A stretch of 64,000 nt of DNA, taken from the NCBI GenBank assembly GCA_039680605.1, contig JBDKTA010000027.1, positions 1-64,000 of the forward strand, in the 5' to 3' direction. Both the position numbers and the translations under genes were made by a program. The stretch's first letter is position 1, and each line of letters opens with the position of its first letter. The notes under the pieces were generated by a model that was not told the DNA's origin, ran no database searches, and saw nothing but the letters and a program-made list of their open reading frames with translations. This document shows, in pieces, positions 1,844-58,556 of the stretch. Source of the DNA: Planctomycetaceae bacterium (lineage in GTDB: Bacteria; Planctomycetota; Phycisphaerae; SM23-33).

Positions 1844-1868
1844 GTGGCACAGCCTTTCCAGGCTGTGA
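1844..1868. repeat. TGGCACAG-family palindromic repeat, single copy
   Basis: CACAGCCT and AGGCTGTG (1848-1867) form an 8-bp stem around a TTCC loop, with GTGG before it. The same sequence occurs as facing pairs at 32376-32440 and 45046-45130. It abuts the point where the repaired hicB frame would stop. Confidence 0.75.
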
Positions 1869-2077
1869 CTAACCCACGTCTTGATAGAGAGCAGGACGGT
1901 AGCGCGGAGGGGGAATGGGCCTGCCCGCCTCGCGGGCGGCTTCAAGCCATGCGGCCTTTCGGCCAGAGCCTCCTGTGGACCATTGCCAAAGGCCGAGCAG
2001 GAATCCAGGTCTGGAATATCGGCAATATAACCGCCGTCGGATTCGCTGTAGAAGATGTTAATGTGGTAATCGCTCAT
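1869..2077 (-). pseudogene. Frameshifted HicB-family antitoxin
   Basis: The first 40 residues read as a normal HicB N-terminus (DGGYIADIPDL, then EALAE). The frame then breaks: the expected C-terminus (AAWLEAAREAG, then RPIPPPRY) lies in another frame directly downstream, from about 1955 to a TAG at 1869-1871. Only two bases separate the last good codon (1958-1960) from the resumed frame, which fits loss of about 13 bp encoding a VERAK-like linker. HicB proteins are antitoxins of the HicA mRNA interferase, with an RNase-H-like fold and often a DNA-binding tail. No HicA gene is adjacent, so this looks like a dead orphan. As written, the frame continues to 1805 through the palindromic repeat and gives an unrelated tail. 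A sequencing error is the main alternative. Confidence 0.75.
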
Positions 2078-2097
2078 GATCGGTTCTTCATCTGAAG

Positions 2098-2103
2098 ATT
2101 ATA
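2098..2103 (-). promoter_or_regulatory. Possible -10 box for hicB remnant
   Basis: On the minus strand TATAAT occurs about 20 bases upstream of the hicB start at 2077, in the short gap after the preceding gene. No good -35 box is visible, so this is tentative. Confidence 0.3.
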
Positions 2104-2111
2104 ATCGACCG

Positions 2112-3587
2112 TCACGGTTTCCTCGCCGGGGTTGTCGGCGGGGCGAGTTTCTGGAGCACCTCGGGCGGGGCGATGTAGATCAGGCCGTCTCTGACGGCGT
2201 AGTCGATGGCCCCGGGCGGGGCGGCCTCGACCAGCGCCAGCCGCAGCGCGATGCGATTGGGCACGTTGCGCAATTCCAACGTCACCGGCGACGTGCGGGA
2301 GATATCCATCCGCCGCAGCGCCCGCCAGTCCATGAAGATGTTGGCGCCCGCAGACTCGCGCAGAAAAATCATCACCGCCTGCAACTCGGTCTTGTTGAAA
2401 TTGAACTCCGGAAAATCCGCTCCAAGTTTCTCGACCACCGCCCGATCAGCCGCCGTTGCGCCACGCTCGGGCCCCGCCCGCAGGCGTGAGGCGATGGCTG
2501 CCGCCGCCTCCGACGACGAGACGATCACAACGCCGGCGGCAATGTCATAGGTGGCTGTCCCGGCCGGAGCGGCCGCCGACAGCGCCAGCACCATCGCCAC
2601 GCGAACCGGAACGTTTTCAAGCTTGATGTTGACGGGCGTGTCGGGCGTGATGCCCGCCTTCTTCAGACCCCGCCAGTCCACGTACAGGTTGGCGGCGCTG
2701 GTCTTGCGGAAGAACTCCATCAGCGTCCCGAGGCGCGCCTCGGGCAGGTTCATCGACGGCACCAGCGCCGTCAGGGCACGCACGGCGGCGGTGTCGGCTT
2801 TGCCTTGCGGCCGCGGGCGGTGCTGCAGGTCCTGGCTCAGCCGCCCGAGCAACTCGGCCGACGTGACCACGACCACCCCGCCGCTGACTCCATAGGCGAG
2901 CTTGCCAGCCGCCGCCTCGGCCAGCGTCATCGACAGTCCCGCCGCCACGGTCGTGTCTCTCCGCTGGAGCGTAATGAGCGTATCGCCCGTGGCGCCGGCC
3001 TTCTTGAGCGCCCGCCAGTCGACAAAGACGTTCACCCCGGCCGTGCTGCGGAAGAACTCGATGGCATCGACGAGCTTGAACCGCTCGAAGGTCAACACCG
3101 GCAGGGAGGCCTGGAGCTTCTTAAGAACCGCCTGGTCCTGCTCGCCGGTCCCGGCGGCCACAGGCTGCGTAGCCGCCGCCTCGCTGGGACGCGTCGTCGC
3201 CACCGGCGGCATCGCCTTGAGCGCCGCCGGCGTGCCCACCACCACGCTCGTGCCGTGGACGACGTACTCGACTTCCCCAGGCCCCGCTGCCGCCGCCAGC
3301 ACCAGCCGCAGCGCCTGGGCGATCGTGACCTTCTTCAAGTGCAGCGTCACCGGCGTGCTCCGCAGCACCTCGACCGCCGTCAGCGATCTCCAGTCGACGC
3401 TGATTCCGACATCCGCCGCCTGCGCCAGAAACGCCACCGCATCGGCCAGCGCCACTTCGTCAAAATCCACCGTCGGCAGCACCACCGCCAACCGAGTCTG
3501 CACCGCGGCCTCATTCGCCGGCGGAGCAGCTAAGGCGACATTGGCCCAGGCTATCGCACATACCGCGATCAGTCCCATTTTGTGCAT
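2112..3587 (-). CDS. Exported protein with four STN-like repeats
   Basis: This 491-residue protein has a signal peptide (MHKMGLIAVCAIAW, cleaved after ALA) followed by four repeats of about 100 residues. Each repeat has the pattern F-x-E-x-x-L-x-D/A-A-x-x-F-L, then VDWRSL or VDWRGL, then TPVTLHLKKV, then QALRLVL, then YVV...VVVGT. That is the pattern of secretin/TonB short N-terminal (STN, N0-like) domains, as in PilQ and GspD. No secretin beta-domain follows. The start at 3587 is preferred over 3602 because AAGGA lies six bases upstream of it. The protein lies 18 bp after its paralogue at 3606-5189 and is probably co-transcribed with it. A periplasmic scaffold or binding role is only a guess. 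Confidence 0.8.
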   Translation of the reverse strand: MHKMGLIAVCAIAWANVALAAPPANEAAVQTRLAVVLPTVDFDEVALADAVAFLAQAADVGISVDWRSLTAVEVLRSTPVTLHLKKVTIAQALRLVLAAAAGPGEVEYVVHGTSVVVGTPAALKAMPPVATTRPSEAAATQPVAAGTGEQDQAVLKKLQASLPVLTFERFKLVDAIEFFRSTAGVNVFVDWRALKKAGATGDTLITLQRRDTTVAAGLSMTLAEAAAGKLAYGVSGGVVVVTSAELLGRLSQDLQHRPRPQGKADTAAVRALTALVPSMNLPEARLGTLMEFFRKTSAANLYVDWRGLKKAGITPDTPVNIKLENVPVRVAMVLALSAAAPAGTATYDIAAGVVIVSSSEAAAAIASRLRAGPERGATAADRAVVEKLGADFPEFNFNKTELQAVMIFLRESAGANIFMDWRALRRMDISRTSPVTLELRNVPNRIALRLALVEAAPPGAIDYAVRDGLIYIAPPEVLQKLAPPTTPARKP

Positions 3588-3605
3588 GATGAATCCTTTC
3601 ATCCG

Positions 3606-5189
3606 TCATTTCGGCTTTGGTACGGAAAGAATAACCTTTCCGTTCTCGATTCGGTACGTCAGGCCCTTGCCTTGGCCGGCACTGTCGAGGATGAGCGTCA
3701 GCGCCGTATGGAGAGAGACGTCGGTTCCAATATCAACTGTTACAGTCGCCGCGCGAGGAAGGGTGCTCTTCTCTGACAGCCGTTTGCTAAAGAATCCGAT
3801 TCCGACGGCATGGAGGGATGCCAGATCTGGAGAGATATCCACCTTGCTCAGATCCCGGATAAGACCAATGGAATCGTCCAGTTCAATTCCTTGAAGCTCA
3901 ATTCCAGGCAAATTGCCAGGCTTGTTTTGGGCCAGCCACTTCAGGTGTTCCTTCTCAAGAGCGGCCTCCATCATTCTCTTGGCCAGCGGCTCATCCGCGG
4001 GCTGGGCGGCGACGGGAGGCGTTTCAATCTGCTTTGTCAGCCGCTTGGCATCGTCGCAAGTGGAGACAATGACAACTCCGTCGGCGATTTCGTAGCCCAG
4101 TGATTCCTCACCGGCAACGTCTTTGAGACACACCAGCAAGCCTTGATGAACGGTCACGCCGCGCACGTGGACATTGACCGGGGTGCTCCTGCTGATCCCG
4201 GCTTGCGACAGGGCGTGCCAGTTCACGTAAATATCCTGGCCGCTGACATCCCGCATGAATTGAATTACATCCTCGAGTTCGATATCGTCAAACTTCAGTT
4301 CCTTAATCCGCTGCTCCAGCTTCCCGCGGACAGCGGCGTTGCGCGGTGTGCCACTGGCGGCCATCGGAGAAGACTCCAGCATCGCTGATATCTTCTTAAG
4401 CTCTCTGGGCGTAGAAATGACAATCACGCCGCCGGCGACGACGTAATCCAAAGGCGGGTCGACCTGGGCGGCTTCCAGACATAGAAGAATTGCCTGGTGA
4501 AGCGTGACATCCTGAAGATGCACGGTGACAGGCGCCGAGGCCCTCCTAAGGGCGCTGCGGGACACGTAGATGTTTTGGCCGCTGATGTCCCGCATGAACT
4601 GGATGATGTCTTTCAATTCGATGCCGTCGAAATTGAGTTCCTTGATGCGCTGCTGGATGGCGTCGCTAACCGCCTTGTTGCGAGGAGTGTCTTTGGCGAC
4701 TCCTGGAGCCGTTTCCATCATCGCCACCATTTTCTCAGCATCTTCAGCCGTCGAGATGATGATCTTCCCGTCGGCGATCCTGTAGGCAAGGGGGCCGCGG
4801 ACGTTTGTTGCATTAGCCAGACACAATTCGAGGCATCGCCGGACGGTCATATCCTCTTCATGGAACGTTACGGTCGATCCCTGCTTTCCCATGCCAACTT
4901 TGGACAGCTCGCCCCATCGCACGTAGATGTTCAGCCCGGTTGCACCCTGGATGAACTGGATCACATCCTTGAACTCGATCTCTTCGAAATCCAGCTTCTT
5001 GATATTCTGATCAAGAGCCTCGAGGGCACGCGCGTTTCGGGAAACCTCAGTCGTAGCCCGCGTGGCGCTTTGCGGGGGCTGGACTTGCTTCCGCACCTCC
5101 GGACCGCATCCCCACAGACACATCACGCTAGCCATGATCACAGGAGTTCGCGCCACGCACTTGTTCAGCGGTCGTTTCACGAGTATCAT
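3606..5189 (-). CDS. Lipoprotein with four STN-like repeats
   Basis: This 527-residue paralogue of the next gene carries a lipoprotein signal: a basic N-region (MILVKRPLNK), a hydrophobic stretch, and the lipobox LWGC near residue 28. Three closely similar STN/N0-like repeats follow, with signatures FKDVIQFIQGATG, LKDIIQFMRDISG and LEDVIQFMRDVSG, each then NIYV or DIYV, a PVTVHL strand, a helix ending in LLCLE, and a terminal VIVIST strand. A fourth, more diverged copy ends the protein. There is no secretin pore domain and no TonB box. It shares a 72-bp divergent promoter region with the MoxR gene. Membrane anchoring is well supported by the lipobox; the molecular function is unknown. Confidence 0.82.
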   Translation of the reverse strand: MILVKRPLNKCVARTPVIMASVMCLWGCGPEVRKQVQPPQSATRATTEVSRNARALEALDQNIKKLDFEEIEFKDVIQFIQGATGLNIYVRWGELSKVGMGKQGSTVTFHEEDMTVRRCLELCLANATNVRGPLAYRIADGKIIISTAEDAEKMVAMMETAPGVAKDTPRNKAVSDAIQQRIKELNFDGIELKDIIQFMRDISGQNIYVSRSALRRASAPVTVHLQDVTLHQAILLCLEAAQVDPPLDYVVAGGVIVISTPRELKKISAMLESSPMAASGTPRNAAVRGKLEQRIKELKFDDIELEDVIQFMRDVSGQDIYVNWHALSQAGISRSTPVNVHVRGVTVHQGLLVCLKDVAGEESLGYEIADGVVIVSTCDDAKRLTKQIETPPVAAQPADEPLAKRMMEAALEKEHLKWLAQNKPGNLPGIELQGIELDDSIGLIRDLSKVDISPDLASLHAVGIGFFSKRLSEKSTLPRAATVTVDIGTDVSLHTALTLILDSAGQGKGLTYRIENGKVILSVPKPK

Positions 5190-5202
5190 CTTTCAGGCGG
5201 CA

Positions 5203-5218
5203 GGTACAGTATTGTACC
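5203..5218. promoter_or_regulatory. Dyad in divergent intergenic region
   Basis: GGTACA-GTAT-TGTACC forms a six-base dyad between the divergent STN lipoprotein gene and the MoxR gene, only 72 bp apart. Its position suggests an operator serving both, but no binding protein is identified. Confidence 0.4.
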
Positions 5219-5261
5219 GCTACGGCGGCCGCATTAGAAGAAACGCACCCCCGAGGCGCTT

Positions 5262-6331
<1,070 letters not shown>

Positions 6332-6332
<1 letters not shown>

Positions 6333-6449
6333 AAAGTTGGGACGCTTACCACTTTCGTTTCGCGGCGATGCGATGGATAATCCCGGCAGTAAGATCACAA
6401 AGACGCAACGCTTCAACGGCAGACGAAAGTGGTAAGCGTCCCAACTTTC
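6332..6449. repeat. Long inverted repeat between MoxR and beta-helix genes
   Basis: A 27-bp arm (6332-6358, beginning GAAAGTTGGGACGC) is repeated as its exact reverse complement at 6423-6449, around a 64-bp centre. The left arm starts on the last base of the MoxR stop codon. The right arm ends directly before the ribosome binding site (AAGGA) of the next gene. It resembles a pair of inverted REP units (REPIN-like). Confidence 0.9.
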
Positions 6450-6462
6450 TAAGGAACCAAAC

Positions 6463-8025: not shown

Positions 8026-8041
8026 GACCTCATTACGAAAA

Positions 8042-11698: not shown

Positions 11699-11741
11699 TG
11701 GCGTATCCCCTGGCAAAAGAGTTCCTGATCGCGGGCCGGTC

Positions 11742-15849: not shown

Positions 15850-17850
15850 ATGACCGCCCGCGCCATCATCATGGGTTTGATCGGAGCCCTTTTTATCGGG
15901 ACCATTGGGTACTTCAACGACCAGGTCCCGCGGGTGAACTATTTCGTCGGCAACCACTTCCCCATCATCGTCTTCTTCCCCCTGGTGCTGGTGGCGCTGC
16001 TCAATCCGCTGCTGCGGCGGTTCAAAGTCACAGCCGCCGAAATGGCCGTGGCGGCGGCGCTGATGCTGGTGGCGTGCAACATCCCCGGCTCAGGCATGCT
16101 GCGGTTCTGGTCTCGCAACGTCGCCATGCCCGTCCACGCCTACCGCTCGCAGCCGGACTGGCAGAAGGGCCATGTGCTCGACCGCGTGCATCCGGCGATG
16201 CTCACCAACGGCGGCGTCTATGACGACGCGGTCAACCAGAAGCTGCTGACCGGCGGGAGCTCGGTGCCTTGGGCGGCATGGGAAAAACCCATCAGCGTCT
16301 GGGGGCCGATCATCGCCCTGGTCGCCATCGCGTCGATCTGCATGGCCCTGGTGGTGCATCGAACGTGGTCCCGGCACGATCGCCTGCCCTATCCGATCGC
16401 GCAACTGGCCGAGTCGATGATCGAGGCCGGCCGCGGCGGCAGCGGGTCCATCTTCTCCAGCAAGCTCTTCTGGCTCGGCGCCTGCATCGTGCTGGGCATC
16501 CACCTGGTTAACGGCGCCAATCTCTGGGCCGACAACCGGCTGATCAACATCCCCTTGAGCCTCAACATCAACGACATCTTCACGCTCTTCAGCGAAAAAG
16601 GCGTGGTCTGGGGATACTGGGCGGTCGGGTGGCCGTACGGGCAACTGGTCATCTGGCCCACCGCGCTGGCCTTTGCGTGCTTTGTGGCCAGCGACGTCAG
16701 TTTCGCCCTGGGCATCTCGCCGCTGGCGCTGACGGCCGTGACGACAGTGCTGTTCGGGATGGGCCTGCCCACCAGCGCCAGCACGATGGATGGCGGGATC
16801 TTTCCCTGGGCTCACGCGGGCAGTTTTTTCGCCATTGCCCTGGTGCTGGTGTACCTGGGGCGCCGCAACTACTGGCACATCGCCCGCCAGGCGATCACAT
16901 TCATGCCCAGCCGCGAGTCGCGCCCATACGAGGCGTGGGCCTTTCGCGGCCTGGTCGTGGCGGTCGCGGCGCTGGTGCTGCTGCTGTCACACCTGGGGCT
17001 GAGTTGGCCATTCGCCATTCTCGTCATCGTCATGATCCTGACAGCTTTCCTGGTGATGGCCAGGATCAACGCCGAGTCCGGTCTGATCCTGATGGAAACG
17101 TGGTGGCAGCCGATCTCGGTGCTGATGGGGCTCTTCGGCATTAAGGCGCTGGGCCTGGGCAACTACGCCATCATCGCCATGCTGGGCCTGCAGTTCACCA
17201 TCAACGCCCGCGAGTGCCTGATGCCCCTGGCTGTCAACGCCGTTCGCATCTGCGACATGCACCGCGTCTCGCCCGGGCGCGTGGGCCTGGGCGGGTCGGC
17301 GGCCTTCGTGCTCGTGCTGGCGGCGGCGATCCCCTTCAGCCTGTTCGTGGACTACAAGTACGGTCTGCAAAAGGGCGAGTCGTTCCCCGTCCGCAGCGCC
17401 CCTCAGCGCAACTTCAGCAACGTCGCCCTCAATTACAATCGCATGTCTTCCGAAGATCGCCTCGCCAGCGATTCGTTCTCTCCCCTGCAGCGAATCTCCG
17501 AGATGACGCCCAACAGGAACTGCCTGGCGGCGATGGCGGCGGGAATGGTCGTCGTGCTCGTCATCTCCGCCCTTCGCATGCGGTTCACGTGGTGGCCGCT
17601 GCACCCGATTCTGTTCCTCTTCTGGGGCACCTGGGCGATGGGGGCCTTCGCCTTCTCGTTCCTGGTCGGATGGACCCTGAAATTGGCTGCCTCGCGCTTC
17701 GGTGTCCGCCACGCGACTCTCAAAACATTCATGATCGGCGTGATCGCCGGCGACCTGACCGGCGGGGCCCTCTGGATGATCGTCGGGGCGATCTACTGGG
17801 CCATCACCGGCGAAGCCCCGAAACGCTATCTCGTCTTCCCCGGCGGATGA
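15850..17850 (+). CDS. DUF6785-type polytopic membrane protein
   Basis: The start at 15850 is chosen over 15700 because GAAGGA lies seven bases upstream and the shortened 666-residue product opens directly with a membrane helix (IIMGLIGALFIGTIGYF). About twelve to fourteen hydrophobic helices follow. Family-like features include WGPIIALVAI, the loop RHDRLPYPIAQLAESM near residue 180, and ARINAESGLILMETWW near residue 405. I recognise it as the DUF6785/DUF6784 type found mainly in planctomycetes and relatives, which resembles oligopeptide-transporter-like proteins. Substrate and mechanism are unknown. It is divergent from the HEAT operon and upstream of an esterase gene. Confidence 0.78.
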   Translation: MTARAIIMGLIGALFIGTIGYFNDQVPRVNYFVGNHFPIIVFFPLVLVALLNPLLRRFKVTAAEMAVAAALMLVACNIPGSGMLRFWSRNVAMPVHAYRSQPDWQKGHVLDRVHPAMLTNGGVYDDAVNQKLLTGGSSVPWAAWEKPISVWGPIIALVAIASICMALVVHRTWSRHDRLPYPIAQLAESMIEAGRGGSGSIFSSKLFWLGACIVLGIHLVNGANLWADNRLINIPLSLNINDIFTLFSEKGVVWGYWAVGWPYGQLVIWPTALAFACFVASDVSFALGISPLALTAVTTVLFGMGLPTSASTMDGGIFPWAHAGSFFAIALVLVYLGRRNYWHIARQAITFMPSRESRPYEAWAFRGLVVAVAALVLLLSHLGLSWPFAILVIVMILTAFLVMARINAESGLILMETWWQPISVLMGLFGIKALGLGNYAIIAMLGLQFTINARECLMPLAVNAVRICDMHRVSPGRVGLGGSAAFVLVLAAAIPFSLFVDYKYGLQKGESFPVRSAPQRNFSNVALNYNRMSSEDRLASDSFSPLQRISEMTPNRNCLAAMAAGMVVVLVISALRMRFTWWPLHPILFLFWGTWAMGAFAFSFLVGWTLKLAASRFGVRHATLKTFMIGVIAGDLTGGALWMIVGAIYWAITGEAPKRYLVFPGG

Positions 17851-17857
17851 AAACACC

Positions 17858-17957
17858 GGATGATTGGATGATTGGATGGTTGGATGGTTGGATGGTTGGG
17901 TACATGACCAGAGTCTTGTTTTTTCATCCATCCACCCATCCATTCATCCACGCATCC
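17858..17957. repeat. GGATGG/CCATCC inverted low-complexity element
   Basis: Runs of GGATGATT and GGATGGTT on the left face CATCCATCCACC-type runs on the right, so the transcript could fold into a long imperfect hairpin. It fills the gap between the DUF6785 stop (17850) and the esterase gene. Similar elements occur at 22808-22869 and inside 29368-29542. Confidence 0.85.
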
Positions 17958-18022
17958 GTTTCACTCCTGTCTCGTAACAAGGCGCCTTTGGCCGGGTTAA
18001 AGTCTGCCAGAAAGGGCTTGCC

Positions 18023-22807: not shown

Positions 22808-22869
22808 GGGATGGATGGATGAATGGATGAGTGGACCAGCGCCCATCCATCCAAAACATCCATCCATCC
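22808..22869. repeat. GGATGG/CCATCC inverted low-complexity element
   Basis: GGGATGGATGGATG-type repeats face CCATCCATCC-type repeats, giving an imperfect hairpin of about 62 bp. The element starts six bases after the oxidoreductase stop and ends before the isomerase ribosome binding site (AAGGA). It lies inside an otherwise continuous operon. Confidence 0.85.
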
Positions 22870-22905
22870 GATTGAAGAACTAACTCCACAAAAAGGAACC
22901 GTTCC

Positions 22906-27842: not shown

Positions 27843-27946
27843 ATTTCCAATTTCCAATTGGCAATTTCCAATTGAAGAGCATTCGTAGGGCGATGGGCGG
27901 ACTATCTGTTGTTCAATTGGAAATTGAAAATCGGAAATTGGAAATG
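27843..27946. repeat. AATTTCC-family inverted element
   Basis: Left-arm units ATTTCCAATT face right-arm units AATTGGAAAT, around a centre containing TGTTGTTCAATTG. It begins two bases past the NtrC-type gene's TGA on that strand and ends about 60 bases before the fusion gene. A second member lies at 30978-31072. Confidence 0.88.
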
Positions 27947-29361: not shown

Positions 29362-29367
29362 TCTATT

Positions 29368-29542
29368 TCACCGCAGAGGTCGCAGAGATCGCCGAGAGGA
29401 AGAGGAGGAGGTTGGATGATTGGATGGAAGGATGGTTGGATGGATGATTCTCCACCCATCCACCCATCCACTCATCCATTCATCCCTTCATCCCTTCATC
29501 CTCTTCATCTCTTCTCTGCGTTCTCCGCGATCTCTGCGGTGA
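29368..29542. repeat. Nested inverted element between kinase and regulator genes
   Basis: The outer arms, TCACCGCAGAGG...GCAGAGATCGC and GCGATCTCTGCGGTGA, face each other. Inside them is a GGATGG/CCATCC element of the kind seen at 17858 and 22808. The outer right arm overlaps the last dozen codons of the kinase gene; the outer left arm ends seven bases before the regulator start. Confidence 0.88.
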
Positions 29543-30971
29543 GATCTCCCGGAAGCTCGAACCAGAACTCCGTGCCCGTTCCGGCAGGGGACGGATTATA
29601 GCCGATGCGCCCGCCGTAGCGGATGACGATCCCGCGGCAGACGTAGAGGCCCAGGCCCGCTCCGTCGCTGCGCGTCGAGACGAAGGGGTCGAAGATATCC
29701 TGCCCGGCGGCGACGACCCCCTGCCCGGTGTCGATCACGCTCAGCCGCGTCGCGCGGCCGCTTTTCGCCAGCGACAGCGTGAGCCTTCCGCCGGCGGGCA
29801 TAGCGGCCATCGCGTTGAGCACGAGATTCATGATGACCTGGCGCATGTGTCCGCTGTCGGCACGCACGGCAGGGGCCAACGTGTCATAGCGGCGCGTCAC
29901 CTCGATGCCCGCGTGTCCGCAGCGGCTTTGCAGCAGCTCGGCGACGGAGTCGGCCGGTTCGATCAGGCTGATCGGCGCCAGGGCAGCCAGGGCCTTGGCG
30001 TCGAGCGGTCCCTGCGCCTGGGCGGTCGCCAGGCCCATGAGTTCCTGGATGTACAGGTCCAGGCGTTCGATCTCGCGGCGGATTAGGGCAGCACTGCGGT
30101 CGTCGATGTTGTGCCGCGCCAGTTCGTCCTGCAACACCCGCACGTTCATGGCGATGCCCGAGAGTGGGTTGCGGATCTCATGCACCACCGAGGCGGCCAG
30201 CTTGCCCAGCGTCGCCAGGCGCTGCGAGCGGGCCAGGCTTTCGCGGGCCTGGCGGAGGCGCTCCAGCAGATGGTCGAAGGATTCGGCCAGTCTCACCAGT
30301 TCCGCCGGACCCTTGGCCATTCCAGAGGACATGGCGGCTGAGGAACGGCCGCCTGACAGGGGCGCCTCGTTATCGGCGGCGGCGGCCATTCGGTCCATCT
30401 GGGCGGCCAGACGACGGATCGGACGCGTCAGCGTCATCGACAAGGTCACCGCCAGCAGCGTGGCGGCGCCGATAGCCGGCAGCGTCGCCACGGCCATCCG
30501 ACGCGCCGCGTCGGCCTTGGCGGCGGCAAGCTGCTCAGCGGGCACGAGCAGATACAGCCGCGCCTGTTCGGCCTTGCCGTCGGGCCTCAACCGCTCGATG
30601 CGTCCGGTGCCCAGGTGGTAGGCGTCGGCGCCGAGTGTGACGGGCCCCTGCTCGGGCGCGCCGCGGCGCAGCAAGGTCTGCAGGGCCGAGGTTTCCTGCG
30701 GGCGCAGCGACGAGCCCAGCACCGCTCCGCCGTGCCCGACGGCCACCGCGTCGGCGCCGTAGATCTGCTTGAGGTGGTTCATGAGCGTGTCGCTCAGGGG
30801 CAGGTTCATGCTCGACAGGAGCCGGCAGGTGCTGTCGGCGACATCCACCAGCAGGCGTTTCTCGATGGCGTTCTGGGCCACGACGACAGCCCCCCACCCC
30901 GCCGCCAGCGCCACCGCCAGCACCAGCAGGTTGAGCGTCACGATCATGCGCGTTCGGATAGAAATCGCCAT
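29505..30971 (-). CDS. Membrane sensor histidine kinase
   Basis: The product has 488 residues if started at ATG 30971; an earlier ATG (30992) lies inside the AATTTCC repeat and is less likely. The N-terminus has one membrane helix (LNLLVLAVALAAGWGAVVV), an extracytoplasmic sensing region to about residue 165, and a second helix (LPAIGAATLLAVTLSMTL). A HAMP-like linker follows. The kinase core shows the H-box HEIRNPLSG, N-box LVLNAMAAMPAGG, and G-boxes DTGQGV and GAGLGLYVCRGI. It is NtrB-like in its core and should phosphorylate the adjacent NtrC-type regulator. Its last residues (TAEIAENAEKR) are encoded by a repeat arm shared with the nested element, so the original C-terminus may have been altered. 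Confidence 0.93.
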   Translation of the reverse strand: MAISIRTRMIVTLNLLVLAVALAAGWGAVVVAQNAIEKRLLVDVADSTCRLLSSMNLPLSDTLMNHLKQIYGADAVAVGHGGAVLGSSLRPQETSALQTLLRRGAPEQGPVTLGADAYHLGTGRIERLRPDGKAEQARLYLLVPAEQLAAAKADAARRMAVATLPAIGAATLLAVTLSMTLTRPIRRLAAQMDRMAAAADNEAPLSGGRSSAAMSSGMAKGPAELVRLAESFDHLLERLRQARESLARSQRLATLGKLAASVVHEIRNPLSGIAMNVRVLQDELARHNIDDRSAALIRREIERLDLYIQELMGLATAQAQGPLDAKALAALAPISLIEPADSVAELLQSRCGHAGIEVTRRYDTLAPAVRADSGHMRQVIMNLVLNAMAAMPAGGRLTLSLAKSGRATRLSVIDTGQGVVAAGQDIFDPFVSTRSDGAGLGLYVCRGIVIRYGGRIGYNPSPAGTGTEFWFELPGDLTAEIAENAEKR

Positions 30972-30977: not shown

Positions 30978-31072
30978 ATTTCCAATTTCCAATTTTCAAT
31001 TTCCAATTTGCCTGAACGCCCGCTTGGGCATCTTGTTGTTCAATTGCAAATTGGAAATTGGCAATTGGAAAT
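30978..31072. repeat. AATTTCC-family inverted element
   Basis: Arms at 30978-31010 and 31041-31072 face each other, built from ATTTCCAATT units and their complement. The centre contains TTGTTGTTCAATTG, shared with the copy at 27843-27946. On the minus strand the element starts at the TGA of the hydrolase gene and ends seven bases before the kinase start. Confidence 0.88.
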
Positions 31073-32375: not shown

Positions 32376-32440
32376 GTGGCACAGGCTTTGGGGCCTGAGG
32401 TCGTTCTCTATGGGACACAGCCTGGAAAGGCTGTGCCACC
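32376..32440. repeat. TGGCACAG-family facing pair
   Basis: GTGGCACAGGCTTTGGGGCC (from 32376) faces GGGACACAGCCTGG...GTGCCACC (32412-32440). The pair lies between the alpha/beta-hydrolase stop (32472) and the barrel-protein start (32364), directly upstream of the latter's likely ribosome binding site. It matches the copy at 45046-45130. Confidence 0.85.
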
Positions 32441-42303: not shown

Positions 42304-42657
42304 GAAGCAAACTCGAAATTCGAAACCCGAAGATCGAAACAAACAACAAGGGGGAAAGAAACAAAAAGCAACCGGGGAGGATTTTCAGCGGCACGTGGCA
42401 ACGCGCGGGCCGAAAGCTTGGAGACGGGGGGTGCCGTGGCGCGCAGGGCCGAAGGCCCGAAGAGCCACGATCCCCTGAACTCACGGCCTCACTGCCCCCG
42501 GTCGTGGCTGTCGGGCTTCGCCCTCCCGCCACGGCACCCCATTCGCCCACCACCACGGCACGGGTGCTTGCGTTCTTCTTCCTTGCTTCTTGTTTCTTGC
42601 TTGTTGTTCTTGTTTGTTGTTTGTTTCGGATTTCGAATTTGGGATTTCGAGTTTTCT
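42304..42657. repeat. Long nested inverted element filling a convergent gap
   Basis: The 354 bases between the AraC stop and the GH95 stop are almost entirely inverted repeat. The outer left arm has CGAAATTCGAAACCCG and GAAACAAACAACAAG; the outer right arm has CTTGTTTGTTG and TTTCGGATTTCGAATTTGGG. Inside is another pair, GGTGCCGTGGCG (near 42430) facing CGCCACGGCACC (near 42529), plus GGCCGAAGGCC-type palindromes. No protein is encoded. Confidence 0.85.
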
Positions 42658-44964
42658 TTATCTGCCCACCCTGTAACTTTTGCCCGTAGCAGTCCGGAAC
42701 GACACCAATCCCGGCGCGGCTTGGCGCACCGTGACCGGTTTGCCGTCGCAGGTGATCTTGACGGCCGCTCCCGCTCGCAGGCGACACAGGCCGCCCTGAA
42801 GCGAGCGAACCGTCGCCTGGGCGAGCTTGCCGCTCTTCCAGGCGATGTCGATCTCGAACCCGCCTCGCGCCCTCAGACCGCTCACGCTGCCGTTGGGCCA
42901 GGCCTTGGGCAAGGCCGCCAGCAGATGAATCTCACCGGCGTGGCTTTGCAGGAGCATTTCGGCCACCGCCGCCGCGGCGCCGAAATTGCCGTCGATCTGG
43001 AACGGCGGGTGCGTGTCGAAGAGATTGGGCAGCGTCTTCTCGGCCAGCAGGCGGCGGTGCAGCACGTGGGCGTGGTCGCCGTCGCACAGGCGAGCCCAGA
43101 AATTGATCTTCCACGCCAGCGACCAGCCGGTCCCGTCGTCGCCGCGGGCCTCGAGCACCTTTCGCGCCGCCGCGGCCAGCGCCGGCGTGGTCGACGGCGA
43201 AATCATCTTGCCCGGATGCAGTCCGAACAGGTGCGACGTGTGACGGTGATGCGGCTCGGCCTCGCGGTACTCGTCGACCCACTCCATGATGCGCCCGGTG
43301 GTCTTGCTGATGCGCACCGGCGCCAGGCGTTTCATCGCCTGCAGGATTTCCTTTTGCAGCGCCGCTTCGCCCTTGCCGCCCATCGCCTTGATCGCCTCCA
43401 GGCAGTTGCCGAAGAGGTCGTTGAGGATCATCAAGTCCATCGTGGCGGCGTAGGTAAAGACGGTCTGCTGCCCGTCGGGCAGGATGAAGGCGTTCTCAGG
43501 CGAGTGCGAGGGATTGGTCACCAGCCGCCCCGCCACCGGCGTGCCGGCCGGGGCCTCGACCAGCGTGTCGAGGCAGAACCGTGCGGCGCCTTTCATCAGC
43601 GGCCACGCGCGACGCGACAGGAACTGCTTGTCGCCGGTGAAGCGGTACTGCTCGTACGCGTGCTGGGCCAGCCACGCCGAACCGATGGGCCAGATGCCCC
43701 AGATGCCGTCGAAGGGCACGGCCGAGCACCACAGGTCCGTCAGATGATGCACCACCCACCCCCGCGCGCCGTAATGTACGCGAGCGGTCTTGGCGCCGGT
43801 CTTGGCCAGGTTATCCATCAGGTCGATCAGCGGAAGCTGGCACTCGATCAGGTTGCATGGGCCCGACAGCCAGTAGTTCATCTGCAGGTTGATGTTGGTG
43901 TGGAAGTCGGCGCTCCAGGGCGGCGTGAGCGAGTCGTTCCAGATTCCCTGCAGGTTCGCCGGCAGCGTGCCCGGGCGGCTGGAGGAAATCAGCAGGTAGC
44001 GGCCGTACTGAAAATGCAGCGCCGATAACTGGCTGTCGCGGGCCTTGGGATCGGCCAGGGCCTTGATGCGCTCGTCGGTGGGCAGGCGCTGGGCGTCGCT
44101 GCGCCCCAGGTCGATCTGCACGCGTCCGAACAGGCGGCGGTAGTCCTCAACGTGCGACTGGAGCAACTGGCGGAAGCTCTTGCCCGCCGCGGCTGCGAGC
44201 TGCGCCTTGCAGATCGCGTCGGGGTTGGCGGTCAGGTTCGTCGGGCTCTTGTAGTTGGTCGCGCCGGCGATCAACAGCGTGACGGCCGAGGCCTTGCGGA
44301 CCACCAGCGCGTCGCCCTTGGCCGTGACCGTGCCGCCTTCGTTGACGATGCGGACATAGGCGGCATATTTGATCCCGCGCGGATGGCAGCGCCCGCGCAG
44401 CGTCAGCGCTCCGCCGCGGATGCCCGCCTTCCACCCCTGCCCCGGCCGGGACAGCGACGCGGTGAAGTTCAGCCCGGAGGGCTTATCGCACTCGATGCGG
44501 ACGGCGATCACCTCGTCGGGCGCACTGGCCAGCGCCGTGCGGGTGAACCGCACGCCGCCGGCGCTGTAGCTGACGCTGGCGGTGGCGGTCTCGAGATCCA
44601 GCTCGCGCCGATACCCCTTGACCGGTCCGGGCAGCTCGAACGCCAGGTGTACGTCGGCCAGCGGTTGATAAGGCCGCACGCGCTCGGGAACGCCCATCAT
44701 GTTTTCCGCGGCGATCTTGCAGGCCTGACCGGGCTGATCGTCAAAGAGCAGTTGGCGCACCTTGGGCAGGGCCCTGCGGGCGCGGGGATTGTTGCGGTCG
44801 CGATTGTAGCCGTCCCAGAGCGAGTCCTCGTTGAGCTGCAGCCGCTCGATGGCGTCGCCGCCGAAGACCATCGCGCCCAGGCGGCCGTTGCCGATGGGCA
44901 GCGCCTCGACCCACTCGCGAGCCGGCTGGCGGTACCAAAGCGTCATGTCCGATGGCTGCGACAT
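42658..44964 (-). CDS. GH95 alpha-L-fucosidase-like glycoside hydrolase
   Basis: The start at ATG 44964 is supported by AAAGGA; a TTG five codons upstream is also open. The 768-residue product has the full GH95 signature: [20 protein letters not shown] then LGAMVFGG at the N-terminus, [20 protein letters not shown] in the (alpha/alpha)6 barrel near residue 410, [14 protein letters not shown] near 565, and [17 protein letters not shown] near 660. GH95 enzymes release terminal alpha-1,2-linked L-fucose, or L-galactose, by inversion. Many planctomycete and Bacteroidetes copies have a signal peptide; none is visible here, suggesting action on imported oligosaccharides. A second GH95 lies at 59544-61949. 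Confidence 0.94.
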
Positions 44965-45045: not shown

Positions 45046-45130
45046 GTGGCACAGGCTTTCCAGCCTGTGGCTCTCAGGAGCCAGGGCAGGCGGTTCACAA
45101 TGGGACACAGCCTGGAAAGGCTGTGCCACC
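45046..45130. repeat. TGGCACAG-family facing pair
   Basis: GTGGCACAGGCTTTCCAGCC (from 45046) faces GGGACACAGCCTGG...GTGCCACC (45101-45130). It lies between divergent GH95 and aldose-epimerase genes and ends nine bases before the latter's AAAGGA ribosome binding site. It is a near-identical copy of 32376-32440. Confidence 0.88.
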
Positions 45131-46696: not shown

Positions 46697-46790
46697 AGTA
46701 TTGGGCCACAGAGACACAGAAACACAGAGCAGGTTTGTTGCTTTCTATTTAGCGCCCTCTGTGACCTCTGTGTCTCTGTGGCCCAATACT
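46697..46790. repeat. CACAGAG-family inverted element
   Basis: AGTATTGGGCCACAGAGAC on the left faces its complement ending GGCCCAATACT on the right, with CACAGAG units between. The core includes GTTTGTTGCTT. It shares arms with 55688-55810. It lies after the duplicated galM end and before a toxin-antitoxin promoter. Confidence 0.9.
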
Positions 46791-48118: not shown

Positions 48119-48197
48119 ACGTCGTTCTCCTGATTGCGGATCGGGCCGCATCCCCCCTACCCCCGGGTCCTGCCCAGTCCCAGGATCATGTTCCCTA

Positions 48198-51578: not shown

Positions 51579-51660
51579 ATCTCACCTTCGAGTGCCGCCT
51601 GAGAGCGGCTATGTTCTGCAGTGAGATATCGGTAAGAAGGCGATTAAATGTTTAGAAAGC

Positions 51661-55571: not shown

Positions 55572-55687
55572 CCCTGTGGTCCTGTCAGCAGAATGGGAAA
55601 GAGGCGATATTAGCGGCCCCGCCCCGCCCGAGCAACAGCGGATTGCACTTCATTTGTACGTCAACGGTTTCATCAGCGGCCTGTATT

Positions 55688-55810
55688 GTTGGGCCACAGA
55701 GACACAGAGAACACAGAGACAGATTGGCAATAGAGACAACAAGGAAGTGAAGTTGCTTCTGCTGTTTCAATAATTCCAACTCTGTGTTCTCTGTGCCTCT
55801 GTGGCCCAAC
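55688..55810. repeat. CACAGAG-family inverted element
   Basis: GTTGGGCCACAGAGACACAG (from 55688) faces its complement ending GAGGCCCAAC-type sequence at 55810; 31 of 32 arm positions pair. The centre holds GTTGCTTC and a short AT-rich stretch. It lies between divergent purL and GH51 genes and ends four bases before a promoter. Confidence 0.92.
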
Positions 55811-55813
55811 ATC

Positions 55814-55842
55814 TTGATTCGCCAGCCGCGCGACATCATTAT
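55814..55842 (+). promoter_or_regulatory. Promoter of GH51
   Basis: TTGATT (55814-55819) and CATTAT (55837-55842) are 17 bp apart, four to five matches each to consensus. The gene starts 27 bases further on. Confidence 0.5.
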
Positions 55843-55868
55843 TAAGAGACCAGCAATAGGAGACACTC

Positions 55869-57338
55869 GTGCCTACAAAGGTCCGCATCGACACCGACCG
55901 CCCGGCAGTCCGTTTTGACCGGATGATCTTCGGCCAGTTTCTCGAGCACTTCCACCGCCAGGTCTACGGCGGCGTCTTTGACCCGGGCAGCCCGCTGTCG
56001 GACCGGATGGGCCTGCGGCTGGACGTGATCGAGGCCCTGCGCGAGCTGCGGATCCCGATCGTCCGCTGGCCCGGCGGGTGCTTCGTCAGCGCGTATCACT
56101 GGAAGTACGGCGTGGACCCCGACCGCACGGCGGTCTTCGATAAGGCCTGGCGCGTCGAAGAGCCCAACACCTTCGGCACCGACGAGTTCGTCGCCTGGTG
56201 CCGCGCCATCGGGGCCGAGCCATACATCTGCACCAACGCCGGCACCGGCAGCGAAGAGGAGATGTCCGACTGGGTCGAGTACTGCAACGCCACGGTCGGC
56301 AAGTTCGCCGCCCAGCGCCGCGCCAACGGGCACGAGCAGCCCCACAACATCAAGTACTGGTCCATCGGCAACGAGAACTGGGGCGGGCATGAGATCGGCG
56401 CCAAAAAGGCCCCTCAGTGGGCGGCGTTGGTGGCCGAGTCGGGCAAGATGATGCTCCGCGTCGACAGCTCGATCAAGCTGCTGGCCGCAGCGCTGGCCGA
56501 GATCGACTGGACGCTGCCGCTGCTGCGAGAGGCCGGGCACCTGCTGTCGTACATCTCCATCCACAATTACTGGGACGGGCTGTGGATGAACAACGCCGTC
56601 TCCGACTACGCCACGTGCATGACTCGATCGCTGGGCCCGCAGGAGATGATCCGCAGGGCCGCCAGCATCCTCGATGTGGCGAACCTGGGAGGCAAGGTCG
56701 CCATCGCCTTCGACGAGTGGAACCTCCGCGGCTGGCACCACCCCAACCTCGGCAGCGCCGCCTTCGGCGATGTGGCCGCCCGCGACAAGAACGACCTCAA
56801 CGCGACCTACACGATGGCCGACGCGGTTTTCTCGGCGTGCTTCCTCAACGCCTGCCTGCGCAACGCCCAGACTGTGAAGATGGCGTGCATGGCCCCGGTG
56901 GTCAACGCCCGCGGGCCCCTGTTCGTACACCCCAAGGGCGTCGTGCGGCGAACGACGTTCCATGTGATGAAAATGTACTCCGACCTGCTCGAGCCCAACG
57001 TGATCGACTGCTGGTCCGGCGGCGAAACGTTCGAGCACGCGGGCCAGTCCGTGCCGGCCATCGACGCCATCGCCACGGCCGACGACGCGGGCAGGACCAT
57101 CGCCCTGGCGCTGGTCAACCGCTGCGCTGAAAAGAGCATCGCCTGCGACGTGCGCATCGCCGGCAAGGCCCTGAGCGGCACATTCGACGCCACCGTGCTG
57201 TCCGGCGACAGCCCCGACGCCTATAACGACATCGACGCCCCCAATCGCGTCACGCCGCAGAAGACGCGATTGGCTTTCGAAAACGGTTCGGTTGCGCTGA
57301 GCCCGCACAGTGTGACGATTGTTTCGGCAGCTTGTTGA
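55869..57338 (+). CDS. GH51 alpha-L-arabinofuranosidase
   Basis: The 489-residue product starts at GTG with AGGAG upstream. The N-terminal FDRMIFGQFLEHFHRQVYGGVFDPGSP and IVRWPGGCFVSAYHW are GH51 signatures. The acid/base Glu169 lies in WSIGNENWGG and the nucleophile Glu283 in AFDEWN, both retained. The enzyme would release terminal L-arabinofuranose from arabinan or arabinoxylan oligosaccharides. No signal peptide is present, so it probably acts on imported oligosaccharides, as many GH51 enzymes do. It is preceded by a CACAGAG element and a promoter and is divergent from purL. Confidence 0.95.
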   Translation: MPTKVRIDTDRPAVRFDRMIFGQFLEHFHRQVYGGVFDPGSPLSDRMGLRLDVIEALRELRIPIVRWPGGCFVSAYHWKYGVDPDRTAVFDKAWRVEEPNTFGTDEFVAWCRAIGAEPYICTNAGTGSEEEMSDWVEYCNATVGKFAAQRRANGHEQPHNIKYWSIGNENWGGHEIGAKKAPQWAALVAESGKMMLRVDSSIKLLAAALAEIDWTLPLLREAGHLLSYISIHNYWDGLWMNNAVSDYATCMTRSLGPQEMIRRAASILDVANLGGKVAIAFDEWNLRGWHHPNLGSAAFGDVAARDKNDLNATYTMADAVFSACFLNACLRNAQTVKMACMAPVVNARGPLFVHPKGVVRRTTFHVMKMYSDLLEPNVIDCWSGGETFEHAGQSVPAIDAIATADDAGRTIALALVNRCAEKSIACDVRIAGKALSGTFDATVLSGDSPDAYNDIDAPNRVTPQKTRLAFENGSVALSPHSVTIVSAAC

Positions 57339-57382
57339 CCCCGTGAGCGATTCCTATAATATGCGTGTACATGCATGTACAC
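57332..57382 (+). promoter_or_regulatory. Promoter and 18-bp palindromic operator of vapBC
   Basis: TTGTTG (57332-57337) and TATAAT (57355-57360) are 17 bp apart. Five bases later comes the perfect 18-bp palindrome GTGTACATGCATGTACAC (57365-57382), which would cover the start of transcription. GH51's stop codon overlaps the -35 box. This is ideal for autorepression by VapB or VapBC. Confidence 0.75.
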
Positions 57383-57404
57383 GTGTACCCGGGAGAATTT
57401 TGCG

Positions 57405-57632
57405 GTGGCGACCAAGACCATTACTATTGATCTAGAAGCGTATAACCGGCTTAAAGCTGTCCAGCATGCCGACGAATCCTTCAGTAGCACGATCAAGAGA
57501 GTCGTGCGCGCGCCGCTGGACCTCAAGGCCTATGCCAGGAACCTGCGTCGCTCGCCCATGAGTGCCGAGGCGATTGGCGCCGTCGAAGAGCATCTGGCCC
57601 GTCGGCATGAGCCTTCTACGAGACGCCGCTGA
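57405..57632 (+). CDS. VapB-type antitoxin
   Basis: The 75-residue product starts at GTG 57405 with GGGAG nine bases upstream; an earlier ATG at 57375 would overlap the operator. The N-terminus ATKTITIDLEAYNRLKA resembles VapB antitoxins of the DUF217-like or RHH type, with a DNA-binding strand then helix. The rest (SFSSTIKRVVR, SAEAIGAVEEHLARR) would bind and cap the toxin. Its last base overlaps the toxin ATG (TGATG). The 18-bp palindrome upstream is its likely operator. Confidence 0.82.
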   Translation: MATKTITIDLEAYNRLKAVQHADESFSSTIKRVVRAPLDLKAYARNLRRSPMSAEAIGAVEEHLARRHEPSTRRR

Positions 57633-58069
57633 TGGCCTGCTTGGACACCAGCGTGCTCCTGGACCTTGCCGGGCGAGGTGGGGCCAGAGGCGTGCGCCAA
57701 GCCATGGCGAAGCTCCGCATGCTCGTGGCGCAGGGGGAAGGTCTGGTAACGACACGGATCAGCGTAGCAGAACTGTATGTGGGTGTTTGGCGCTCGCATG
57801 ATCCCCCCCTGGAGCGAAAACGGGTGGAAGTCATCCTTGAGGGGCTCGATATTCTTGATTTTGATCAGAGGGCGGCAGACCTTTTCGGCCAGATCACGGC
57901 ACACTTGCAGCAAATCGGACGTCCGATAGGTGATCTGGATGTAATGATTGCCGCCATCTCTCTCGTCAATGGGCATCTGCTTGTGACGGGCAATGCCTCC
58001 ATTTTCTGCAAATCCCGCAGCTCGTCGTCGAGACCTATTGACCTATGGTATGCTGCCTTAGATGGATAA
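57632..58069 (+). CDS. VapC PIN toxin, apparently frameshifted near the end
   Basis: This 145-residue PIN ribonuclease keeps its four acidic positions (Asp5, Glu47, Asp101, Asp103) and the near-terminal Asn in LLVTGNAS. From about codon 123 the sequence is not family-like. One base lower the frame reads an X-F-LQIPQLVVETY ending with a TGA at 58039-58041, the typical VapC terminus (for example HFxxIPxLxxxxY). A one-base deletion near 57999-58003 explains this, and the extended tail then overlaps the HAD gene by eight bases. The change does not remove catalytic residues, but it replaces the last strand and helix, so activity is uncertain. A sequencing error is possible. Confidence 0.82.
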   Translation: MACLDTSVLLDLAGRGGARGVRQAMAKLRMLVAQGEGLVTTRISVAELYVGVWRSHDPPLERKRVEVILEGLDILDFDQRAADLFGQITAHLQQIGRPIGDLDVMIAAISLVNGHLLVTGNASIFCKSRSSSSRPIDLWYAALDG

Positions 58070-58487
58070 ATCCGTTTCATTCGATTTTGACGGCACGCTG
58101 ACGCAAATCGTCTGGAGCGAGGCTCTGGGCGTGTGGATCAACTCGCGCCGGCCCAACGAGAAGATGGTCCGCCTGCTGCGGCGCCTGGCGCAGCGCGGGT
58201 ACCAGGTACACATCGTCACGCGGCGGCGGTCTGACAGCGAGGGCGCCAGCTCGCCGACCGAAGAATGCGGCGTGGGCGAGTTCCTGCACACCCACGGGCT
58301 TGGCGGGTGCGTGACGGCTGTGCATTTCTGCGGCGACCACAGCCCCGAGGGCGACAAGACGGCCGTGCTTAAGAAGATCGCCCCGCTGCGTCACTGGGAC
58401 GACCTCGACCAGCACGTGCAGGAAGCCCGCCGAGCCGGAATCAAGGCCCGGAAAGTCCGCCGCCCGGCGGGATCGGAACGGAGTTAG
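58062..58487 (+). CDS. HAD-superfamily phosphatase-like protein
   Basis: This 141-residue protein has the HAD motif I FDFDGTLT at residues 7-14 (nucleophile Asp8, acid Asp10), VHIVTRR near residue 50 as motif II, and a Lys plus acid pair in GDKTAVLKK and HWDDLDQ as possible motifs III and IV. It is among the smallest HAD proteins, lacking an obvious cap, and could be a 5'-nucleotidase-like or sugar-phosphate phosphatase. Its TAG stop lies inside the left arm of a repeat element. It overlaps the frameshifted vapC tail by eight bases, or starts 20 bases after the repaired vapC. Confidence 0.8.
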   Translation: MDKSVSFDFDGTLTQIVWSEALGVWINSRRPNEKMVRLLRRLAQRGYQVHIVTRRRSDSEGASSPTEECGVGEFLHTHGLGGCVTAVHFCGDHSPEGDKTAVLKKIAPLRHWDDLDQHVQEARRAGIKARKVRRPAGSERS

Positions 58488-58556
58488 CGGCGGGGTTTGC
58501 CCCGCGCGGTTTCTGAGGTCGGGGAAGAAACCCGTCGAGCAAGCTCGACCGCTAAC
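58483..58556. repeat. Compound inverted element after the HAD gene
   Basis: Outer arms GTTAGCGG (58483-58490) and CCGCTAAC (58549-58556) enclose three hairpins: CGGGG-TTTG-CCCCG, GGTTTCT...AGAAACC and TCGAGC-AA-GCTCGA. The left arm contributes the TAG stop codon of the HAD gene. Confidence 0.85.

Follow-up and report, generated by a model that had tools for sequence, protein, structure and literature searches.

The inverted repeats that lie in many intergenic gaps of a 64,000-nucleotide stretch of DNA from a Planctomycetaceae bacterium (the window; assembly GCA_039680605.1, contig JBDKTA010000027.1) were compared with the rest of their source genome (G000; 5.23 Mb, 72 contigs, 95% complete) and with other genomes. 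The reading that we favour, with a probability of about 0.72, is that 9 of the 14 sites listed in a preliminary description of this DNA are copies, without a gene, of very small mobile elements that come in two sister kinds, one bearing a gene for an S23 protein and the other a gene for a GxxExxY protein, and that the rest are similar to repetitive extragenic palindromic (REP) units or are unplaced. The S23 proteins, which are four-helix bundles, match the profiles PF05635 and TIGR02436, and a sequence search finds their solved relatives 2gsc and 2rld, the closest being 2gsc, of the Xanthomonas campestris gene XCC0516. There is also a weak NCBIfam match between S23 and Avd, below its cut-off (E = 2.5e-4), and the homology of these two proteins has been suggested (PMC10053308). 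The GxxExxY proteins match TIGR04256 and PF13366, and the GxxExxY and D-x-ExK motifs are each present in 52 of the 56 open-frame peptides obtained from 61 loci, which is the pattern of a PD-(D/E)XK active site. Neither of the two proteins is, to our knowledge, a known transposase.

Genes of both families are associated with short-period arms. The first link was seen at two loci from the phylum search (L137 and L138), where a small gene with the GxxExxY motif and a match to PF13366 lies between arms of which the nearer second one is direct and not inverted. When PF13366 was searched for in G000 and 20 relatives, 30 loci were found; short-period arms, highly varied in sequence, bracket most of these, and loci matching PF05635 (23S rRNA IVP / S23 four-helix bundle) were bracketed by arms in the same manner. 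A bracket was scored as an inverted repeat with a score of at least 15 within a reach of 320 nt from the profile match, at least 200 nt being needed on each side; brackets wider than this reach, such as that of L244, count as misses, 3 of 36 GxxExxY loci and 1 of 70 S23 loci were left out for shorter flanks, and L247, which is the same gene as L207, was counted once. With the loci of named plasmids included, 27 of 33 GxxExxY loci and 54 of 69 S23 loci were bracketed. The respective figures were 24/27 and 44/58 in genomes, 3/6 and 10/11 on named plasmids, and 4/4 and 7/13 within G000. Among control genes of 300-700 bp sampled from G000, G008 and G010 the number bracketed was 4 out of 316, and two of these four were GxxExxY genes; compared with the 2/314 that remain when these are removed, the association has p = 3e-32 for GxxExxY and p = 3e-49 for S23 (Fisher's test). 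In a second set of 59 phylum genomes, 18 of 24 GxxExxY loci and 14 of 26 S23 loci were bracketed, the scored loci being 24 of 28 and 26 of 29 new ones with the remainder at contig ends; one of the 24 (L368) had already been seen as L138, and three of the 12 S23 misses fall below the family cut-off. The two families also differ in the arms themselves, as a 7-nt arm period was found in 38 of 54 bracketed S23 loci and in none of 27 bracketed GxxExxY loci (p = 2e-10). Among the latter, 11 have a period of 9 nt and 13 are without a clear period, and their arms are of the CRCAGAG, CACGAAG, CACGAATG and CGCTGAT types and also of GGATTACA-, AACGGC- and CGAAC-types. The median length of the detected arms is 33 nt (15-98) and 347-785 nt lie between the arms of gene-bearing copies. 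As a separate matter, an upstream reading frame at L137 enters the arm (1490-1534) and gains the tail ATEDTETTENK, and short-period arms elsewhere may be a source of such C-terminal tails.

The movement of the S23 unit was seen in filled and empty sites on plasmids. Trichormus plasmid C carries an S23 element of 428 bp that Nostoc linckia NIES-25 lacks; the near flanks are 99.1% and 98.8% identical, the longer flanks are 97.6% and 96.4% identical with a 5-nt overlap, and GTAAT stands on either side of the insertion, a 5-bp duplication that includes the upstream stop codon. In Scytonema NIES-4073 the same insertion is 14 bp shorter, the difference being two 7-nt units of the left arm, and in Nostoc C052 there is a remnant that has lost its right arm and most of its gene, with ATATG at the ends of the loss. 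Less exact pairs of filled and empty sites were found at cmr2-cmr3, at nrdB-nrdA and in Aulosira. Related plasmids without the element were found in 4 of 5 comparisons, and for the fifth, a Bacteroides GxxExxY locus, no relative was found to compare. The S23 copies on annotated plasmids sit between coding sequences, and genes of both families are found within known gene pairs, namely fabD-GxxExxY-fabG (Sphingomonas; no bracket found), nrdB-S23-nrdA (Nostoc), cmr2-S23-cmr3 (Picosynechococcus) and cas6-S23-cas4 (Anabaena and Pseudanabaena). What differs between these plasmids is the whole S23 element from arm to arm, which shows that the unit with its gene moves, and by analogy the GxxExxY unit may move as a whole too. 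At about 99% identity, such pairs of filled and empty sites make the mechanism testable.

The gene-less short-period palindromes look like derivatives of these gene-bearing elements when their sequences are compared. Three of the four GxxExxY copies of G000 have arms that are also on gene-less elements there, namely CGCAGAG (L176), CACGAATG (L203) and GGATTAAG (L199), and the fourth (L191) has a weak bracket and no gene-less match. Among the S23 copies of G000 the arms are GGATGG (L237), GACGAG (L239), AATTTCC (L240) and GGAATA (L241), and three of these families occur in the window; an S23 open frame matching PF05635 lies inside L207/L247, L237, L239, L240, L241 (partial match), L242 and L245 (weak, below cut-off). 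The arms of the 14 sites were compared with all gene arms collected, the threshold being the maximum of 30 shuffles (Table 1). Six of the sites match arms of gene-bearing copies of G000 above shuffles (L237, L239, L240 and L176), three (42304, 46697 and 55688) match best the arms of genes from other genomes, and no gene arm was matched above shuffles by the other five (1844, 32376, 45046, 6332 and 58483). The nine sites that match have short-period arms, mostly with units of 6-9 nt, and the five that do not are the REP-like or unplaced ones. At the 42304 element the two arms score 15 (shuffled 13) and 20 (shuffled 14) against the S23 gene L312, and its right arm is weakly matched to the S23 copy L242 of G000 (15.5 vs 14). 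No match to PF05635 or PF13366 was found inside the window elements. A trace of the gene-bearing form is seen in the AATTTCC family, where TGTTGTT, which stands beside the right arm of the S23 copy L240, is kept in three gene-less copies (27843, 30978 and L068:5340); in L240 this TGTTGTT falls in the leader of the S23 gene. The matches are in part specific to the genome. When the 104 repeats of a 984-kb sample of G000 were compared with gene arms, 25 matched those of G000 and 3 those of G010, and none matched those of G008; the 44 repeats of G008 matched its own gene arms in 8 cases, those of G000 in 6 and those of G010 in 3; and among the 10 repeats of G010, 1 matched its own, 1 those of G008 and 0 those of G000.

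Table 1. Inverted-repeat sites of the window and the gene arms that they match best (scores against shuffled maxima)
Feature	Position	Best match or source
GGATGG-family gene-less element, short-period arms	17850..17960	S23 copy L237 (G000:C65:20646), 27.5 vs shuffled max 15.5
GACGAG-family gene-less element, 35-nt arms, 17-nt loop	19387..19479	S23 copy L239 (G000:C33:74145), 34 vs shuffled max 13
GGATGG-family gene-less element	22808..22870	S23 copy L237, 18.5 vs shuffled max 11.5
AATTTCC-family gene-less element, 7-nt period	27843..27945	S23 copy L240 (G000:C65:6552), 26 vs 13.5
CGCAGAG-family gene-less element, 9-nt period	29365..29545	Outer arm: GxxExxY copy L176 (G000:C22:261460), 23.5 vs 13.5
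GGATGG element nested in CGCAGAG centre	about 29405-29500	Inner arm: S23 copy L237, 29 vs 13
AATTTCC-family gene-less element	30978..31072	S23 copy L240, 26 vs 16.5
TCGAAA-type element, 45-nt arms, no gene found inside	42304..42658	Both arms best: S23 gene L312 (G015)
CACAGAG-family gene-less element, 24-nt perfect arms	46697..46790	GxxExxY copies outside G000 (L317, Bacteroides plasmid), 18 vs 12.5
CACAGAG-family gene-less element, 32-nt arms	55687..55811	GxxExxY copy L188 (G015), 18 vs 15.5
Single REP-like hairpin GTGGCACAGCC...GGCTGTG, outside the S23/GxxExxY group	1844..1867	Sequence; no gene-arm match
Two REP-like GTGGCACAGG hairpins, paired	32376..32440	Sequence; no gene-arm match
Two REP-like GTGGCACAGG hairpins, 24-nt arms	45046..45129	GTGGCACAGG unit also at L026:11638, L041:8839, L054:13300
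AGTTGGGACGCTTACCACTTT inverted repeat, unplaced	6330..6451	Blind search; among the longest repeats
GTTAGCGG inverted repeat, inner hairpins, unplaced	58483..58556	Relatives at L044:12092, L062:13605, L041:14353

The palindromes of the window are real, dense and dispersed beyond it. In 864 kb of G000 (the window and 40 stretches of 20 kb) there are 87 inverted repeats with a score of at least 17, about 1 per 10 kb, and in a first-order Markov copy there are 0; the 104 repeats in 984 kb were obtained by adding six further stretches, with loops of up to 300 nt. A blind search of the window gave 92 repeats, the 25 longest of which include 9 of the 14 listed sites (6330, 42305, 27843, 19393, 55687, 29365, 30978, 46697 and 45046), and four further sites (17858, 22808, 32376 and 58483) can be read directly in the window sequence. 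The preliminary description had reported inverted repeats in many intergenic gaps, and this was borne out by the blind search, the direct reading and the Markov control. It had also placed facing pairs at 1844, 32376 and 45046, which holds for the latter two but not for 1844, which is the single hairpin GTGGCACAGCCTTTCCAGGCTGTG. Its picture of families unrelated in sequence that have an architecture in common, are dispersed and nested, agrees with what we found, and several families have the look of mobile units whose gene is at another place in the genome. There are two main arm architectures, namely hairpins with a head (GTGGCACAGG..., GTGGCACAGGCTTTCCAGCCTGTG, TGGAGTGCGGCAGC... and GTAGCATGGG...) versus degenerate tandem repeats of 6-9 nt, the latter with units CCRCAGAGNNCRCAGAG (9 nt), ATTTCCAATTTCC (7), CAGTAATCGGTAAC (7), GACGAG (6), GGATTAAGA (9) and CACGAATGN (9), and some arms fit neither. 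The short-period arms are mostly without an internal hairpin, a few, including that at 27843, scoring as having one. Nesting was seen for GGATGG or GGAAT within CGCAGAG and for GTTAGCGG within GACGAG (L028:16832 and L059:11316), and GAAAGTTGGG of the 6330 site has one further copy among the loci collected (L065:7435). The proposal that a single process made all of these repeats did not survive, as the arms and the linked genes differ and at least three kinds are mixed, namely REP-like units, a family of miniature inverted-repeat transposable elements (MITEs) with YTAR duplications, and the short-period-arm elements with S23 or GxxExxY.

The families are not confined to the window, copies being found across G000 and the phylum. 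The CRCAGAGNNCRCAGAGNNCRCAGAG pattern occurs 69 times in G000 and is present in 16 of the 35 genomes from its family, the reversed pattern having 0 occurrences, and the CACAGAGNNCACAGAGNNCACAGAG pattern occurs patchily in 42 of 294 phylum genomes, with two matches of the reversed pattern in total. Nor are the gaps identical in relatives in the one family for which this was tested, CACAGAG, whose pattern has 124 overlapping matches in G215 and 0 in two congeners (86% and 68% complete); this expansion is a lineage-specific burst. Within G215 (L145-L174) the arms are unequal in length, with up to about 10 CACAGAG units on one side, the spacer dinucleotides (CC, GC, AG) are often uniform within an arm, and several copies are also alike beyond CTAG.

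Some of the sites are of a known kind in their style. The arms of the TGGCACAG sites (1844, 32376 and 45046) are hairpins with a head as in REP units, and by this sequence style they look REP-like. It had been suggested that a gene for a REP-associated tyrosine transposase (RAYT) should be looked for. In G000 there are 15 matches to Y1 transposases, and with a flank limit of 450 nt, hairpin arms bracket 9 of 10 Y1/RAYT loci from the search matches, which is the arrangement expected of RAYT genes and serves as a positive control for the bracket scoring; one more locus, in L064, has no such bracket. At L026:19277-19993 a RAYT-like Y1 gene is bracketed by GTGGCATGGG / GTGGCATGGGCGTCTCGCCCATGC hairpin arms, which is the REP/RAYT arrangement. 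Genes of the suggested type are therefore present and hairpin-bracketed, but the short-period arms bracket S23 and GxxExxY genes instead. These loci could be taken to mean that everything here is the known REP/RAYT system with unusual REP units, and the TGGCACAG sites fit it in style. We consider this the least probable of the explanations and a very improbable one, as the short-period arms, mostly lacking an internal hairpin, bracket the S23 and GxxExxY genes, the Y1 loci have hairpin arms, and the TGGCACAG arms have no match to the two RAYT arm sets with which they were compared. The likeness of our elements to REP units, or to their paired forms (REPINs), and RAYT genes is that small dispersed palindromes and a gene-bearing copy occur in the same genome, and this explains part of the window by style; the short-period elements differ, however, from REP/RAYT, where the gene codes for a Y1 transposase and each arm is a hairpin with a head.

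The MITE-like family of G000 (L115-L133 and others, e.g. L116, L118 and L127) is 86-200 bp and mostly 164-200 bp long, ends in CCCGAAAACTGCATGAACC.../...GGTGAAATATCCGGG with CGCAGAG inside the ends, and has several copies at contig ends. YTAR duplications flank 11 of 18 copies compared with 54 of 306 mis-paired ends, and it looks like an ordinary MITE that took in, or grew from, CGCAGAG arms. The fixed-length duplication expected of a MITE of a DDE transposon is found in this family only and is absent group-wide in the S23 and GxxExxY copies. Since this family contains CGCAGAG and its duplications point to a transposase of the DDE type, and since Y1 genes are also present, it may be asked whether another enzyme (a RAYT, a DDE transposase or a reverse transcriptase) moves the short-period palindromes while S23 and GxxExxY ride as cargo. 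Room for such an explanation is left by the duplications, empty sites, brackets and CACAGAG gene copy that are missing and by the partial genome specificity. The arm period, however, follows the protein family (38/54 vs 0/27) across many unrelated arm sequences, and the named copies from Cyanobacteriota, Bacteroidota, Gemmatimonadota and Pseudomonadota are included in this; a neutral passenger would not track the period. We therefore regard the cargo explanation as unlikely, though it is the strongest of the rivals.

Several observations weigh against our reading. No bracket was found in 6 of 33 GxxExxY loci and 15 of 69 S23 loci, the second set likewise having 6 of 24 and 12 of 26 without one (18% to 46% by set), and on named plasmids a bracket was found for only 3 of 6 GxxExxY loci. 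No CACAGAG gene-bearing copy above shuffles was found in G000 (95% complete), though the window has two CACAGAG elements. The specificity of the matches is incomplete, as gene arms from 14 further genomes are matched by 35 of the 104 G000 repeats, which happens because CRCAGAG-like arms are common, and of the 44 repeats of G008 almost as many match arms of G000 (6) as match those of G008 itself (8); the support for action in trans is therefore partial. When four plasmid stretches of 50 kb each were aligned, no gene-less copy with short-period arms was seen to differ; of the inserts listed, 30-1500 bp in size, the gene-bearing S23 one is the only one with short-period arms, those of 31, 48, 94, 535 and 1263 bp being without them. 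No fixed or group-wide target duplication was found across the GxxExxY or the S23 copies, and the 5-bp duplication comes from a single insertion site. In the duplication scan the standouts fall at shifts inside the arms and are mostly dinucleotides, which the self-complementary letters of the arms would explain. No clean empty site was found for GxxExxY when G163, G090 and G194 of genus g97 were compared. Finally, the S23 arms have 48 G-U mismatches compared with 29 A-C mismatches (p = 0.04), which is some RNA signal.

In genus g97, a GxxExxY insertion that follows a gene for a reverse transcriptase (PF00078) is common to G163 (L332) and G090 (L333); in each of them the closer of the candidate second arms is in direct orientation, and G090 has an inverted arm about 90 nt further. 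G194 (L334) was rejected as a clean empty site, since about 730 nt of other sequence stand there, including a DUF559 gene (PF04480) with hairpin arms. Arms of the hairpin type are seen at three DUF559 copies (L345, L352 and the G194 copy; L344 and L346, at contig ends, are left out of the count), and DUF559 as a further carrier is a lead. The stretch that directly follows the GxxExxY element recurs in G163 as about 10 near-identical copies, and the element thus adjoins a multicopy insertion sequence; at L137 a gene for an IS66-type transposase lies just downstream of the GxxExxY element.

The G-U excess of the S23 arms bears on an explanation without any mobility, in which slippage and template switching create the palindromes where they stand, and they are preserved for a structural role in RNA or DNA at the ends of genes (as terminators, as protection of mRNA 3' ends or as RNase III sites). 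Selection for structure at RNA 3' ends had been proposed earlier, and the comparison of G-U with A-C mismatches gives it no consistent support, as the ratio is 15/23 (p 0.26) in GxxExxY arms and 53 vs 80 (p = 0.02), which is of the opposite sign, when gene-less repeats of every class are taken from the co-directional gaps in three genomes; mismatches at loci whose strand could not be determined (17 GxxExxY, 29 S23) are excluded from these tests. A start at or near a stop codon, also claimed earlier, holds loosely, many repeats being at most tens of nt away from the end of a called gene, but among the 40 repeats put in the short-period class by a script whose classing of arms is rough (that at 27843 was put among the hairpin arms), there are 5 in divergent gaps and 3 within called genes. 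Divergent gaps make up 81 of the 403 gaps of at least 20 nt, and their avoidance by short-period repeats (5/40) is not clear. The nearness of many repeats to gene ends speaks for a structural explanation, as do one arm that differs by whole units, the unequal arrays of G215, the weak G-U excess of S23, and the heptamer repeats of Xanthomonas, which lie near stop codons and are reported to be stable between two species (PMC4692102). The filled and empty sites with a duplication, the arm families at dozens of unlinked places, the lack of a consistent G-U excess, the repeats in divergent gaps and the 347-785 nt between gene-bracketing arms all speak against it, and we hold it to be highly improbable. 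That the repeats belong to the class of intrinsic terminators is spoken against by their loops of 3-342 nt.

If the palindromes are copies of S23- and GxxExxY-bearing elements, each protein would act on its own arm type, move the whole unit and also move the gene-less derivatives in trans, so that a family would expand in one genome and die away in another. We may guess that GxxExxY cuts DNA at or near the target, that S23 is a nucleic-acid-handling bundle working with host enzymes, and that insertion at gene ends is tolerated and hence accumulates. The GxxExxY kind would share one feature with homing endonucleases, a nuclease active-site pattern that appears intact in 52 of 56 peptides. A wider proposal, to which we give somewhat less than even odds, is that S23 and GxxExxY are the movers of two new minimal classes of mobile element without a known transposase or recombinase, in which arms with units of about 7 or 9 nt coevolve with the protein, which insert at gene ends and leave gene-less palindromes in several phyla, and of which the intervening sequences (IVS) of rRNA genes and the heptamer repeats of cyanobacteria and Xanthomonas are special cases; S23 might act through an RNA or cDNA step. 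We take the S23 half as a variant of known IVS-like elements, and the GxxExxY half is possibly a new kind. This would be a candidate for one explanation common to the origin of rRNA IVS, the role of GxxExxY, the scattered heptamer repeats and the S23 genes in cas loci.

Among the known systems the closest to the S23 kind is found in rRNA genes. In Leptospira the 23S rRNA genes have an IVS with an S23 open reading frame (ORF). Like our S23 elements, the 23S rRNA IVS have a protein of PF05635/TIGR02436 and one ORF between terminal inverted repeats, and the Coxiella IVS, with 428 nt and a 28-bp stem, is like the 428-bp insertion; mobility of the IVS has been proposed earlier (PMC4990558). Unlike them, the elements described here lie between protein genes, have short-period tandem arms and abundant gene-less copies, and in one case have a 5-bp duplication. 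In the window the elements lie between protein genes and not in an rRNA gene, and no Rfam match at the gathering score was found there. In bacteria of the candidate phyla radiation, insertion sequences of rRNA genes carry 23S_rRNA_IVP or LAGLIDADG ORFs, and ORF-bearing and ORF-less forms occur at the same sites (PMC11270868); this is similar to what we found, but those insertions are confined to rRNA genes, and by word search the main text of that paper does not contain 'inverted', 'palindrom' or 'intergenic'. Avd of diversity-generating retroelements is a four-helix bundle for which homology with S23 has been suggested (PMC10053308). It works with a reverse transcriptase and a template repeat, and the elements examined here hold one small gene.

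The heptamer repeats of Xanthomonas, Nostoc and Beggiatoaceae have 7-nt units like the S23 arms. In Xanthomonas there are mostly four units per array, near stop codons, with 70 convergent pairs in X. campestris, and in Nostoc few are paired (PMC4692102); the TAACTGA repeats of Beggiatoaceae are nearly all direct, with one inverted (PMC4679880). They have been described as quadruplex-forming or regulatory, the Xanthomonas loci being stable and generally not with mobile elements (PMC4692102, PMC4679880). In these two papers the repeats are described without a link to S23, and a word search of their text gave neither 'S23' nor 'four helix'. No paper that connects intergenic palindromes with S23 or GxxExxY was found in a search whose scope left out most subscription papers and all bioRxiv preprints. 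Short tandemly repeated repetitive (STRR) sequences are those of Calothrix. The presence of 23S_rRNA_IVP/S23 genes in cas loci has been reported (PMC3936711). At three loci of cyanobacterial plasmids (L327, L328 and L329) we found S23 genes that lie between cas genes and look like insertions, and insertion of S23 elements between cas genes may explain those reported in cas loci.

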